Source of the DNA: Acidimicrobiales bacterium | GTDB lineage: Bacteria; Actinomycetota; Acidimicrobiia; Acidimicrobiales; Aldehydirespiratoraceae | DNA: 41,994 nt | Direction: 5' to 3' | Assembly: GCA_022425325.1 (NCBI GenBank) | Contig: JAKMFW010000008.1 | Span: forward strand, 1 to 41,994 | In this document: piece by piece, positions 5,072-10,228 of the stretch | Position numbering within the stretch: position 1 is the first letter of the stretch | Layout: each line of letters opens with the position of its first letter | Made by a program: the position numbers and the translations under genes | The notes under the pieces: model-generated | What the model saw: only the letters and a program-made list of their open reading frames with translations | Told to the model about the DNA's origin: nothing | Database searches by the model: none

Positions 5072-5074
5072 CCC

Positions 5075-5788
5075 CTGTTCTCTGCGGCGCTGTCCACCAC
5101 CCTCGAGGAGCGACTCGGTTATCACTTTGTTGAGCCGGGCCTGCTGATTCATGCCCTCACGCACCGGTCGTGGTGCGCTGAGCATCCCGGCGATGAGTCG
5201 AACGAACGGCTCGAGTTCCTGGGCGATGCCGTGCTCGGTGTCGTGGTGACCGACCACCTGTTCTCGGCCTTCCCTGATCTGCCCGAGGGGCAACTGGCCA
5301 AGGCACGGGCTGCGGTCGTCTCGTCGACCACGCTCGCCGAGGTCGGTCTCGAACTCGGAGTCGGGCTCGATCTGCGCCTCGGCAAAGGCGAGGATGCCTC
5401 CGGCGGTCGAGAGAAGGCATCGATCCTGGCTGATGCGGTCGAGGCCGTGCTCGGTGCGATGTACCTCGACGGCGGCGTTGAGCCGGTCCGTCGCCTCGTC
5501 CTCGAGCAGCTCAGCGAACGCATCGACCAGGCCGCCGAGCGCCCTGGCGACAAGGACTACAAGACTCGCCTCCAGGAGGTCGCAGCACACGACGGGTTCA
5601 CGCCCCCCGTGTACGCGTTGACGGAGAGCGGGCCCGACCACCACAAGCGATTCCACGCAACGGTGGCGGTCGGTGGAGAACGCTTGGGGGCCGGTACCGG
5701 CACCTCGAAGAAAGAAGCCGAGCAGAAGGCGGCTCGTGCCGCTTACGAGCGGCGTTCGGCACAGGATGGAGTCCGTGATGATGTTTGA
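5075..5788 (+). CDS. rnc: Ribonuclease III, apparent non-canonical start
   Basis: Double-strand-specific endoribonuclease for rRNA and mRNA processing, 237 residues if begun at CTG 5075. The N-terminal TTLEERLGYHF helix, the THRSW segment and the signature NERLEFLGDAVLG at about residues 45-57 with its metal-binding acidic residues are present. The double-stranded RNA-binding domain spans about residues 160-232, ending GTSKKEAEQKAA. Between the acpP stop at 5069-5071 and the conserved fold there is no ATG, GTG or TTG; only CTG 5075 and CTG 5090 are usable. The first GTG in frame, 5231, would delete the catalytic signature and is rejected. The 3' end overlaps the fpg-like gene by 11 nt. The fold is certain, the start is not. 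Confidence 0.9.
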   Translation: MFSAALSTTLEERLGYHFVEPGLLIHALTHRSWCAEHPGDESNERLEFLGDAVLGVVVTDHLFSAFPDLPEGQLAKARAAVVSSTTLAEVGLELGVGLDLRLGKGEDASGGREKASILADAVEAVLGAMYLDGGVEPVRRLVLEQLSERIDQAAERPGDKDYKTRLQEVAAHDGFTPPVYALTESGPDHHKRFHATVAVGGERLGAGTGTSKKEAEQKAARAAYERRSAQDGVRDDV

Positions 5789-6614
5789 GCTACCCGAGGT
5801 CGAGACGGTTCGCCGCGAACTCGATCGCGACCTGGTGGGCAAGAAGGTGAAGACGGTCGAGGCGTCGAGCATGGCCGTGCTCAAGCGCTACAAGAATCGC
5901 AAGGCGTTCACCGGCCAGCTCGACGACATGAAGATCACCGGCGTCCGTCGGCGTGGGCTGTACCTCCTCATCGTGCTCGACGGTGACTCGACCCTGGTGG
6001 TCAACCTCGGCTCGTCCGGTTCGCTGCGACGAAACGCCAACAAGAACAAGGTCGAGGACTCCACCGAGGTGGTCATCACCTTCACCCAGCACGGTCAGCT
6101 CCGCCTGGTGGATCCCGACGGCACGGCCGAGATGTTCGTCGTCGACACCGCCGCGCTTGCCGACGAGATCCCCGAGCTCGAGGATCACGGCCTTGATCCG
6201 GTCGACGAACCAGTGTCGTGGACCGAGTTCGGCCGGGCGCTCCTGCAGCGCAACGTCAAACTCAAGACCTTGCTGCTCGACGACACCTTCGTCGTCGGTA
6301 TCGGCAATCTCTACGCCGATGAGATCCTCTACGAAGCCGGTCTGCGTTACGACCGTCTGAGCAACTCGCTGTTGAGCCAGGAGATCCGTCGTCTCCATCG
6401 CGCCTTGGTCGGCACGCTCCACGACGCCATCAAGTACCGCGGGACATCGTTGTCCGATCGTCCGTTCGTCGACCCGTTCGGCGTGCCTGGTGACTATGCC
6501 GAGCACTTGGCGGTCTTCGGAAAGCACGGCGATCTGAGCAGCCGGAGTCGCCTCCCGATCCAGCGGGTGAAGTTCGGCGGCGTCTGGACCTACTTCTGCG
6601 ATACCCAGGTCTGA
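5778..6614 (+). CDS. Fpg/Nei-family DNA glycosylase homologue, probably catalytically degenerate
   Basis: A 278-residue protein in the rnc-smc interval normally held by fpg (mutM). The fold is clear: ELPEVETVRREL at the N-terminus, the NLGSSGSLRR strand and VVGIGNLYADEIL, the helix-two-turn-helix DNA-binding segment. Key residues are missing. Active Fpg begins Met-Pro-Glu and uses the processed Pro as nucleophile; here Phe stands in that place (MFELPEV). The hairpin Lys of the usual RRxxKYL is Leu (RRRGLYLL). DPRRFG of the lesion-recognition loop is DPDGTAEMF. The zinc finger has lost three of four Cys (GDLSSRS, YFCDTQV). ATG 5778 and 5781 are both possible, with GGAG 5768-5771 upstream. Base-excision activity is doubtful; non-catalytic DNA binding is inferred. 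Confidence 0.8.
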   Translation: MMFELPEVETVRRELDRDLVGKKVKTVEASSMAVLKRYKNRKAFTGQLDDMKITGVRRRGLYLLIVLDGDSTLVVNLGSSGSLRRNANKNKVEDSTEVVITFTQHGQLRLVDPDGTAEMFVVDTAALADEIPELEDHGLDPVDEPVSWTEFGRALLQRNVKLKTLLLDDTFVVGIGNLYADEILYEAGLRYDRLSNSLLSQEIRRLHRALVGTLHDAIKYRGTSLSDRPFVDPFGVPGDYAEHLAVFGKHGDLSSRSRLPIQRVKFGGVWTYFCDTQV

Positions 6615-6742: not shown

Positions 6743-9700
6743 ATGCATCTGAAGAACCTCACGCTGAAGGGCTTCAAGTCGTTCGCCGACTCCGCCTCGA
6801 TCGATCTTGAACCAGGGGTCACGGTTGTGGTCGGTCCGAACGGCTCGGGCAAGTCGAATGTCGTCGATGCCATTGCGTGGGTTCTCGGTGCACAGGCGCC
6901 GTCTGCCGTGCGGTCCGGGAAGATGGACGACGTCATCTTCGCCGGCAGCCAGAACAAGTCCGCCCTCGGCCGCGCCGAGGTGTCGCTCACCATCGACAAC
7001 CACAGTCGCACGCTCCCCGTGGAGTTCAGCGAGGTGAAGATCACCCGCACGCTCTTCCGCAACGGTGACTCCGAGTACGCCCTCAACGGCGTGCCGTGCC
7101 GCCTGCTCGACATCACCGAATTGCTGTCCGACGGTGGCGTCGGCCGTCAGCAGCACGTGATCGTCAGCCAGGGCCAGATCGACGCCGTGCTCAACGCCCG
7201 CCCCGAGGACCGCCGGGCGATCATCGAGGAGGCCGCCGGCGTCCTGAAGTTCCGGAAGCGGAAGGACCGAGCCGAACGCCGTCTCACCGCCACCGACGGC
7301 GACCTCACCCGGGTCAAGGACCTCATGCGCGAGGTGCGCCGCGGTCTGCGCCCCCTGGAGAAGCAGGCCGAGGCAGCGCGTCGTCATGGCGATCTCATCG
7401 AGGAACTCACGGCGCTCCGAGTCCATCTCGCCGGGCGCGATGTCGCCGATCTGCGCACACGACTCGCCGCCAACAGCGAACTCCGCACTGCGAAGATTGA
7501 GCAGGAGCGGGCCACCCGAGCCGAACTCGACGACCTCCACGCCTCGGTGTCAGCCGACGAACGAGCGCTCGCCGACCACGGTGGCGACGATCTCGGCGAC
7601 ACGCTCGTGCGCCTGGAATCGATGAACCAGCGCGGGCGAGGGTTCTCGGCGGTGCTCACCGAACGGCGCCGCGGCGTCGAGCGTGACCGTTCGGCCTTTG
7701 CCGATCGGGCGGTCATCGCCAACATGGAGGCCGAAGCGGCCCGATGCCGTGCCGATCTCGAAGCGGTCACGAATGAGCTCGACGAACTCGGCCCCGATGT
7801 CGAACGGCTCGCCGAGGAGGAAGCCACGCTTGCCCGTGACCGTGAGGCGTTCCAGACGGAATGGGGAGACGGCGTTCCGGTGCCGACCGGCCAGGCATCC
7901 GAGGTCCGTGGCGAGCTGGGCGCCCGTCGCGCCGCGATCGAGCGTGGCGAGAGCGAATCAGCCCACCTTCAGACCAAGCTCACCGAGCTCGATCAGAAGC
8001 GTCAGGATCTCGAAGCGGACGCAGCCCGGCGACGAGCCGACCTCGGCGCCCTCCACGACGAAGAGGAGCCGCTTGTCGCGTCCCACGAGGCGGCCGCCTC
8101 CGCCCGTCAGGTCGCGGAGGAGCACGTCGCCGCCCGCCAGGCCGAACAAATCGACGCCGAGGCCGATCATCATCGTTGGGTCGCCCGCGCCGAGGCGCTG
8201 ACCCTTGCGCTCGACGAGGCCCGCGCTCGCAGTGGGGCTCAGCGCCTCGCCGCTGTCGAGGGTGTCCTTGGCACGCTTCTCGACCTCGTCGCGGTCGAGG
8301 CGGGCTGGGAAGCCGCCTTCGAGGCCGCTGCCGGCGAAGCCCTCACGGCCGTGATCGTCGACGGCACCGACACCGCCCGACTCGCACTCACCGAACTCGC
8401 CTCGGGTGACGCAACCGGTGCCGTTCTCACCCTCGGCAGCCGAACTGGCACTCGGGCTGAAGGCGCCGAGTTCGTGAGGAGCCACGTCTCGGGCACGACC
8501 CCTGCGGTCGATGATCTGCTCGACGTGCTGCTCGCAGATGCGATCGCCGTCGACGGCGACTGGCAGGCTGCGCTCGATCAGGCGCTCGCTCGCCCCGGTC
8601 AGGTCGTCGTGACCCGCACCGGCGACCGGTTCGGTGCCCGCGGTTGGCGCATCGGTTCGGCCGGCCCTGGTGCCACGGGTGCAGCGCTCGCCGAAGCCGA
8701 AGCGGAGGTCGAGCGCACTCGAGCTGTCTGTGCCGCTGCCGCCGATGCCACCACCGAGGCTCGACGCGAGCTTGCCGAGCGTTCGGTCCGGGCCGATGAA
8801 CTCACCCAGCGGCTCGCCGGCATCGAGGAGGGGTTGAGTGCGGCGGCCGACACCTTGCAGCGCACCGATGCCGATCGACGTGAGGTAACCACCGAGGCCG
8901 ACGCGCTGCAGGCTCGCTTCGACGAACTCGCCGCGCGGCTCGAACGCGAGACGGTTCGGGTCGACGAACTCGAGACACAGTTGCCCGAGCTCGTGACGGC
9001 CGAGGAAGCCTCGCTCGAAGCCGGTCGCCGACTCGCCGTCGCCCGCGCCGAGATCGAGGAGCGGGCTGCGATGGTTGGTTCGCTGCGCACCGAGGTCGGG
9101 GTCCGGGCCGCCAGTCTCGACGAACGACGCACGTCGCTCACCACCCGTCTCGCCGAACTCGACGAACGCCTCGAGCGCGACGCCGAGCAGCGTGCCGCTG
9201 CGGAGGGGCAGCGAATCGCACTCGACCGACGAGCGGCTGTGCTCGAACGCCTGATGGCTGCGGTCGAGCGGCGGGCTGGCGTCGTCGATCTCCGTCTCGC
9301 CGACGTGCGCGAGCGCCGTCACCGCCAGTCACAGGCCGCGCAGGAGATCACACAGCGTCTCGACGGCCTGCGTCGACGTCGAGGCGAGGCCGAGAAGCAG
9401 TTGGAGGGGTTGCGATCGGTGATGGCGAAGGCCGAGGTCGAGGAGGCCGAGCTCAGGACCCGCCTGCAGGCAACCGTCGACCGTCTTCGTTCCGACCATG
9501 ATCTCGCTCCCGACGTTGCCGTGTCGGCGCCGTGCCCGGAGCTGCCGGACGGCATCGATCCGGGTCGTCGGGTCGACATGCTCGAGAGCGAGCTCGACAT
9601 CATGGGTCCGGTCAATCCGCTCGCCCTTGAGGAGTATCAGGCGTTGCAGGAGCGGCACTCGTTCCTGCAGGGCCAGCTCGACGACATCCGGTCGACCCGC

Positions 9701-10228
9701 CGGGAGCTGTCGAAGGTGATCGCCTCGATCGACGAGGAGATCGTCACGGTCTTTGCCTCGGCGTTCGCCGACGTGTCGGTCAACTTCACCCAGCTGTTCG
9801 AGACACTCTTTCCCGGTGGTCAGGGCTCGATCTCGCTCACCACGCCGGACGACTTGCTCAACACCGGCATCGAGATCTCGGCGAAGCCGTCCGGCAAGAA
9901 CGTCAAGAAGCTCTCGCTGTTGTCCGGTGGTGAGCGCACCCTCGTCGCCCTGGCGTTCCTGTTCGCCGTGTTCCGAAGCCGCCCGTCGCCGTTCTATGTC
10001 ATGGACGAGGTCGAGGCCGCGCTCGACGACGTCAACCTTCACCGCTTCCTCTCGCTCGTCGAGGAGTTCCGGGCCGATGCCCAGCTGCTGCTCGTGAGCC
10101 ACCAGAAGCGCACGATGGAGGCCGCAGACTGTCTCTACGGTGTCTCGATGAAGCCCGGTGGTTCGAGCCGGGTCGTCAGCGAGAAGGTCGCAGAGACCCT
10201 CGAAGCGACGCCGGCACCGGCGGCCTAG
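6743..10228 (+). CDS. smc: Chromosome segregation protein SMC
   Basis: A 1161-residue condensin ATPase that compacts and segregates the chromosome with ScpA/ScpB. Walker A GPNGSGKSN is at residues 31-39 and the hinge domain is at about 500-640 (begins near AVEGVLGTLLDLVAV). Two long Glu/Arg/Ala-rich coiled coils occupy about 165-490 and 650-990. The ABC signature LSGGERT is at about 1058 and Walker B YVMDEVEAALDD at about 1083-1094. Length is normal for bacterial SMC. The start MHLKNLTLKGFKSF is family-typical and sits 7 nt after TAAGTT. The LLM oxidoreductase begins 3 nt after the stop. scpA and scpB are not in the window. Confidence 0.97.
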   Translation: MHLKNLTLKGFKSFADSASIDLEPGVTVVVGPNGSGKSNVVDAIAWVLGAQAPSAVRSGKMDDVIFAGSQNKSALGRAEVSLTIDNHSRTLPVEFSEVKITRTLFRNGDSEYALNGVPCRLLDITELLSDGGVGRQQHVIVSQGQIDAVLNARPEDRRAIIEEAAGVLKFRKRKDRAERRLTATDGDLTRVKDLMREVRRGLRPLEKQAEAARRHGDLIEELTALRVHLAGRDVADLRTRLAANSELRTAKIEQERATRAELDDLHASVSADERALADHGGDDLGDTLVRLESMNQRGRGFSAVLTERRRGVERDRSAFADRAVIANMEAEAARCRADLEAVTNELDELGPDVERLAEEEATLARDREAFQTEWGDGVPVPTGQASEVRGELGARRAAIERGESESAHLQTKLTELDQKRQDLEADAARRRADLGALHDEEEPLVASHEAAASARQVAEEHVAARQAEQIDAEADHHRWVARAEALTLALDEARARSGAQRLAAVEGVLGTLLDLVAVEAGWEAAFEAAAGEALTAVIVDGTDTARLALTELASGDATGAVLTLGSRTGTRAEGAEFVRSHVSGTTPAVDDLLDVLLADAIAVDGDWQAALDQALARPGQVVVTRTGDRFGARGWRIGSAGPGATGAALAEAEAEVERTRAVCAAAADATTEARRELAERSVRADELTQRLAGIEEGLSAAADTLQRTDADRREVTTEADALQARFDELAARLERETVRVDELETQLPELVTAEEASLEAGRRLAVARAEIEERAAMVGSLRTEVGVRAASLDERRTSLTTRLAELDERLERDAEQRAAAEGQRIALDRRAAVLERLMAAVERRAGVVDLRLADVRERRHRQSQAAQEITQRLDGLRRRRGEAEKQLEGLRSVMAKAEVEEAELRTRLQATVDRLRSDHDLAPDVAVSAPCPELPDGIDPGRRVDMLESELDIMGPVNPLALEEYQALQERHSFLQGQLDDIRSTRRELSKVIASIDEEIVTVFASAFADVSVNFTQLFETLFPGGQGSISLTTPDDLLNTGIEISAKPSGKNVKKLSLLSGGERTLVALAFLFAVFRSRPSPFYVMDEVEAALDDVNLHRFLSLVEEFRADAQLLLVSHQKRTMEAADCLYGVSMKPGGSSRVVSEKVAETLEATPAPAA

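Follow-up and report, generated by a model that had tools for sequence, protein, structure and literature searches.

A catalytically gutted MutM at the rnc-smc locus of Acidimicrobiales, probably retained for a non-catalytic role

Introduction

The N-terminal proline and Glu2 form a dyad that has a role in the mechanism of the Fpg/MutM DNA glycosylases (PMC5422863). Several members and relatives of this family depart from the canonical plan. Mycobacterium tuberculosis Fpg2 (Rv0944) is an Fpg-family paralogue that lacks the N-terminal catalytic part (PMC2734929), and NEIL1, Arabidopsis MMH/FPG and MvNei1 carry a beta-hairpin without zinc ligands (PMC9266487). The NFACT-N domain of RqcH/Rqc2, which acts in ribosome quality control, is related to Fpg/MutM/Nei (PMC6514570). 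Our literature search, which was non-exhaustive, returned no account of a dead Fpg that is full-length, conserved and still at its native locus, and nothing on Fpg in Acidimicrobiia or on the N-terminal Val of NEIL3.

Here we analyse an Fpg-family gene lying between rnc and smc in a member of the Acidimicrobiales. An earlier sequence-only reading had proposed that this gene encodes a non-catalytic or mechanistically different DNA-binding protein and is not a simple pseudogene.

Results

Gene, reading frame and locus

The window is the whole 41,994-nucleotide stretch of DNA that was analysed; its features are collected in Table 1. The pseudo-MutM frame runs from 5781 to 6614 on the forward strand and encodes 277 amino acids from ATG5781, with ATG5778 (one extra Met) and GTG5775 as alternative starts. 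The product opens MFELPEVET from ATG5781, and all three starts give an N-terminus of the form M..FELPEVET. Because the codon preceding Glu3 is TTT (Phe), Met-Pro-Glu cannot be obtained from any of them, and a proline hidden by a misplaced start is excluded. Among the 36 orthologues recovered from the window's family, position 2 is Phe in 31, Tyr in five and Pro in none, which rules out a sequencing error and settles the caveat, raised in the sequence-only reading, that resequencing of the N-terminus might restore Met-Pro-Glu.

Nearly all orthologues of the window's family with flanking sequence lie between rnc and smc, and smc homologues occupy the same place in most relatives. Judged by this gene order and by homology, the window gene is the ancestral MutM resident of the rnc-smc locus; RNase III and Smc are its neighbours through ancestral gene order only. 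Among named records, marine "Acidimicrobiaceae/Acidimicrobiales" assemblies are the closest (97% identity, NZNH01000038.1); Candidatus Microthrix records, which fall outside the residue scoring, are among the further relatives.

The rnc frame (PLFSAALSTTLEERLGYHF...) contains no ATG, GTG or TTG ahead of the RNase III signature, and its first usual start would remove the N-terminus. Translation may begin at CTG or another rare start codon; the second codon of the open frame encodes Leu. In a close relative (L006) the first usual rnc start also falls within the domain, though further upstream.

Table 1 Features of the rnc-smc locus in the window
Feature	Position	Strand	Basis
Pseudo-MutM/Fpg gene, rnc-smc locus	5778..6614	+	Frame, homology, predicted fold; best structural matches MutM 1r2y/3jr5
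rnc, upstream neighbour	5072..5788	+	Open frame; end overlaps pseudo-MutM start
smc, downstream neighbour	6743..10228	+	Start near 6743; program-made ORF from 6650
Phe2 replacing nucleophile Pro	5784..5786	+	Phe or Tyr in all 36 family orthologues
Leu60 replacing hairpin Lys (MutM K60)	5958..5960	+	K frequency 1.00 in canonical vs 0.04 in gutted orthologues
Asn75, Ser78 replacing MutM H74 and void-filling M77	6003..6014	+	M77 frequency 0.00 in gutted orthologues
D113-G-T115 replacing MutM R112-K-F114 (lesion-strand wedge)	6117..6125	+	Frequency in gutted orthologues: R112 0.03, F114 0.00
Asp168 replacing MutM Q166	6282..6284	+	Residue alignment
Helix 199-218 with Q200, E201, R203, R204, R207, H214, K218; candidate interaction surface	6375..6434	+	DSSP of model, conservation
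Zincless beta-hairpin: S253, S256, Q276 in place of zinc Cys, C273 kept; V268 for R264	6537..6611	+	Alignment, model, no zf-FPG_IleRS match

Residues and domains of the encoded protein

The protein is homologous to Geobacillus (Gst) MutM over its whole length (132 bits, E 1.8e-37), and the Pfam families Fapy_DNA_glyco and H2TH match above cut-off (81.9 and 72.6 bits). Pfam zf-FPG_IleRS has no match in it, and it falls narrowly under the cut-offs of the NCBIfam Fpg equivalogs NF002211 (199.1 vs 212 bits) and TIGR00577 (196.3 vs 203.3 bits). By descent and fold it belongs to the Fpg/Nei (H2TH) superfamily (both domains, Z 34). With 11 bits against a Pfam cut-off of 31 for NFACT_N, it does not belong to NFACT/RqcH.

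Residues were scored at 15 positions important in MutM, in Geobacillus MutM numbering. The window protein scores 4/15, keeping E3, E6, N174 and the zinc cysteine C269. The non-zinc changes are P2 to F, K60 to L, H74 to N, M77 to S, R112 to D, F114 to T, Q166 to D and R264 to V, and three zinc ligands are replaced (C249 to S, C252 to S and C272 to Q). Alignment to Geobacillus MutM confirms the residue calls of the sequence-only reading; every loss it listed is real, although the list missed M77, H74, F114, Q166 and R264. Of the hallmarks of the Fpg/MutM functional family the protein thus has Glu3 and lacks the Pro nucleophile, K60, M77/R112/F114, R264 and the Cys4 zinc site. With its catalytic residues lost and its fold and selection retained, it has the sequence profile of a pseudoenzyme. 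That the protein has become non-catalytic, as had been proposed, is well supported by the alignment: nucleophile, hairpin Lys, void-filling Met and Phe, R112 and R264 are all lost, and the genome holds a complete second Fpg.

Human NEIL3 shows that superfamily members without an N-terminal Pro exist, and the fold, E3 and E6 are retained here. A glycosylase or lyase with a changed mechanism or substrate, in which the Met1 amine or some other group would serve as nucleophile, is nevertheless very unlikely, since the remaining catalytic and recognition residues are also lost with no conserved new set, and position 2 varies across gutted orthologues (F, Y, L, I, A, T or P).

A constrained and folded protein

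None of the listed gutted orthologues of the window's family has an internal stop. Close pairs give dN/dS values of about 0.04-0.13, indicative of purifying selection (the pair L082/L085, unaligned because of an indel, was left out). Mean within-family identity is 70% for the gutted proteins and 62% for rnc; between families, identity is 46% for gutted proteins compared with 60% for intact orthologues. An AlphaFold2 model of the window protein, built with 82 orthologues, has a pLDDT of 95 and a pTM of 0.90, and its best structural matches (VIA) are MutM-DNA complexes (1r2y: Z 34.1, 272 residues, 2.3 Å). The most eroded relative modelled (L336, 1/15) still reaches a pLDDT of 91 and a pTM of 0.86. 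A pseudogene or a sequencing error is rejected by the stop-free frames, the low dN/dS and the invariable Phe or Tyr at position 2 (36/36).

Among the 111 genomes of the order that match the second-Fpg query, 110 have a further, separate match to the window protein, the lone exception being a fragmented assembly (G216). Eighty of these were scored, and all are gutted. The gutted copy persists in about 20 families of the order, and the 1.8-2.0 Mb genomes of f26 and f34 keep it too. Loss would be the expected fate of a dead and redundant repair gene, foremost in genomes of this size. As read from these sequences, a gutted MutM that is almost never deleted and is under strong selection points to a non-repair job.

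The complete second Fpg present in nearly all gutted genomes would also suit a paralogue from a repair-gene duplication that is decaying slowly and awaits deletion. We consider this scarcely credible. Besides the absence of internal stops, the dN/dS range, the pLDDT of 95, a within-family identity exceeding that of rnc and retention in about 20 families with small genomes among them, no frameshifts or deletions appear in the order-wide lists, and only G216 has the second Fpg with no match beside it. The dN/dS values, the retention across many families and the intact predicted fold uphold the earlier view that this is not a simple pseudogene.

Gutted and intact orthologues

Across the order, the scores of rnc-smc Fpg orthologues show a sharp bimodality: nearly all are either 15/15 or 9/15 and below, which rules out chance. 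Every gutted orthologue of the order has lost M77 and F114, and nearly every one K60 and R112; loss of the zinc site and of P2 is confined to some gutted lineages. One truncated fragment of an intact gene (L181) was excluded from the counts.

One orthologue (L041, genome G041, family f6) is intermediate at 11/15. It keeps Pro2, K60, H74, R112 and the zinc site and carries M77 to T, F114 to S, N174 to A and R264 to G. Its genome lacks the second Fpg type, and it is sister to a large gutted clade; it is possible that it represents an early stage of gutting. Combined with the universal loss of M77 and F114 and the partial loss of zinc and P2, L041 suggests an order of loss in which lesion recognition would go first, then the chemistry, then zinc.

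Two single markers were dropped in the course of this comparison. Zinc loss is not used as the main argument, because all four Cys are kept in some gutted members of f3, f24, f34, f42, f65, f73 and f102 and active zincless members exist. The zinc-finger argument of the sequence-only reading is therefore right about the lost cysteines but weak alone, as NEIL1 and plant MMH illustrate (PMC9266487). Loss of P2 is no better a marker, as P2 is kept in gutted f20, f25 and part of f3, f24 and f65, and is absent from intact f71/f105.

These f71 and f105 proteins (L275-L282, L285-L287, L289, L291, L292, L294 and L295) are intact at 13-14/15 and start fMet-Glu-Leu-Pro, with no Pro2. In L275, L278, L291 and L292 a GTG start immediately follows a stop codon, which places Met1 where the mature Pro1 would be. 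Possibly the N-terminal Met acts as nucleophile in these enzymes, or they represent a second route to losing the nucleophile.

Co-occurrence with a second, complete Fpg

The window's genome contains four Fpg/Nei genes. One (L001) is a complete Fpg at 15/15, so that the check for a second complete fpg, proposed in the sequence-only reading, came out positive. Of the others, L003 is an Fpg/Nei-family protein with Pro2, K60, R112 and four Cys, and L004 is Nei-like with an MPEGH start.

The L001-type Fpg was searched for across the same order-wide genome set as the rnc-smc orthologues. A gutted copy occurs with the second Fpg in 80 genomes and without it in six; an intact copy occurs without it in 56 and with it in none. 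For f38, f49 and f54, gutting was predicted from the second Fpg before the residues were read, and the copies were then found to be gutted. The same pattern held outside the order, in other classes of the phylum: 25 genomes of f65, f73, f77, f88, f95, f102 and f119 combine the second Fpg with a gutted copy; f60, f61, f62, f70, f71, f74, f97, f100, f105 and f110 lack the second Fpg and are intact or score 13-15/15. Two genomes (G255 of f14 and G243 of f23) first seemed to break this pattern, the rest of their families being intact. Both proved to have a complete second Fpg and a gutted rnc-smc copy (8/15), and seven newly fetched f14/f23 relatives without the second Fpg score 15/15.

The rule is not absolute. 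At the threshold used, gutted copies occur without the second type in G024, G053, G087, G091, G127 and G152 within the order and in G314 outside it. Shared ancestry also inflates the co-occurrence counts: there are only 4-5 independent pairs, all concordant or not differing (4/4 at best; sign test, p 0.125-0.25), too few for significance.

In one f65 genome (G382; L363, L389) the second-type Fpg match consists of two adjacent pieces in different frames, and the rnc-smc copy is gutted (8/15). This second-type gene looks frameshifted or misassembled, and possibly neither kind of Fpg is intact in this genome.

Repeated loss on the tree

A careful tree of 104 rows, with the diagnostic columns removed, included the G255 and G243 genomes. 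On this tree the gutted state needs five changes, four of them forced by supported branches, and single-change trees make up 0% of 200 bootstrap trees, in a bootstrap that was not fully settled. G243 is nested in f23 (100/99) and G255 in f14 (98/87). Broader quick trees without these two genomes do not reject one gutted clade in AU tests (p 0.29 for the protein, 0.15 for rnc+smc); a single origin of the gutted proteins is contradicted by the careful tree with the f14 and f23 genomes. At the level of sequence, repeated loss of the rnc-smc MutM active site is shown.

A conserved surface and a lost DNA face

Conservation was compared among two gutted sets (107 and 27 sequences), the intact rnc-smc orthologues and the second Fpg type. 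Seventeen residues are kept in the gutted and intact sets and not in the second type: K24, L47, F101, G105, D139, W147, L161, I182, G187, L188, R192, Q200, E201, R203, R207, V245 and R257. T102 and K218 follow a similar pattern, though less well conserved among intact orthologues. Several of these lineage-specific residues belong to the long helix 199-218. This helix is the most constrained surface of the gutted proteins, and its E201, R203 and R204 are invariant in 82 sequences.

Mean net charge is +7.5 in intact orthologues and +7.3 in the second Fpg type, as compared to -1.9 and -7.7 in the gutted sets, a loss of about 9-15 net positive charges. Over 15 DNA-side positions of our choosing, mean charge is 7.7 (intact), 6.7 (second type), and 2.2 and 2.6 (gutted). 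L001 itself has a net charge of -2, while its type averages +7.3.

These data bear on a non-catalytic sensor of damage or structure, one that would bind lesions, AP sites or junctions uncut and mark or shield them for other enzymes. The ancestor was a DNA-binding enzyme, and the fold, H2TH domain, beta-hairpin and E3/E6 are retained. We judge a sensor unlikely all the same: the void-filling M77/F114 and the phosphate-contact residue K60, together with H74, R112 and R264, are lost, with many of the positions now acidic, and both the DNA-side charge (7.7 to 2.2) and the net charge fall. For the same reason, the earlier designation as a DNA-binding protein finds no support; the DNA-side residues and about 9-15 net positive charges are gone. 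Loss of the DNA-lesion side with retention of a lineage-specific surface favours a candidate protein-binding role rather than DNA binding.

A protein partner might be the active Fpg itself, with the gutted copy acting on the second enzyme as a modulator, either within a heteromer or as a decoy, in a prozyme-like manner. The near-perfect co-occurrence of both proteins fits such a regulator. It is a decidedly unlikely one, however, given the seven gutted genomes without the second type and a conserved surface that is older than the second Fpg, the same residues being conserved in intact orthologues. In addition, Fpg is to our knowledge monomeric in all known structures.

Discussion

Taken together, we think it likely that the rnc-smc gene encodes a pseudo-glycosylase kept for a second, non-catalytic and probably protein-binding job. 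In the mechanism we propose, MutM of this lineage would have had a second job besides oxoG excision, requiring the fold and a lineage-specific surface and not the active site. With another complete Fpg in the genome doing repair, the resident copy would be freed from catalysis and then kept for the second job only. The least certain step is that this job would consist of binding a partner protein and not lesion-type DNA. The contact may be formed by the charged face of the H2TH-domain helix 199-218 together with K24, F101, D139, W147, R192 and R257. We are evenly divided on whether MutM of the lineage has a non-enzymatic function more indispensable than repair, surviving as a pure scaffold whenever another Fpg takes over excision.

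The group concerned is a large, mostly uncultured one of actinobacteria. It offers a natural separation-of-function series for MutM, in which the chemistry has been removed several times from a full-length protein at its native locus, usually with a replacement enzyme, and the question of a MutM job beyond oxoG excision becomes directly testable. Automatic annotation will label as "Fpg" many proteins incapable of glycosylase activity. If the proposal is true, a second role of a textbook repair enzyme has gone unnoticed within the rnc-smc gene cluster.

Among known systems, MutM/Fpg of Geobacillus, E. coli and Lactococcus resembles the window protein in whole-length homology, fold and rnc-fpg-smc order. 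Unlike them, the window protein is without Pro, K60, H74, M77, R112, F114, Q166, R264 and three of the four zinc ligands, and is acidic rather than basic. Fpg2 of M. tuberculosis is a truncated second copy that is complete in M. smegmatis, whereas here the resident is full-length and dead and the second copy intact. NFACT-N likewise represents a non-repair use of the Fpg/MutM fold, but it belongs to a multi-domain translation factor and is very distant; the window protein is weakly similar to it in the H2TH region (E 0.17), and RqcH_arch is matched by one of 82 members. NEIL1, MMH/FPG and MvNei1 share the zincless hairpin with the window protein and differ from it in being active, with the finger Arg and the N-terminal Pro present.
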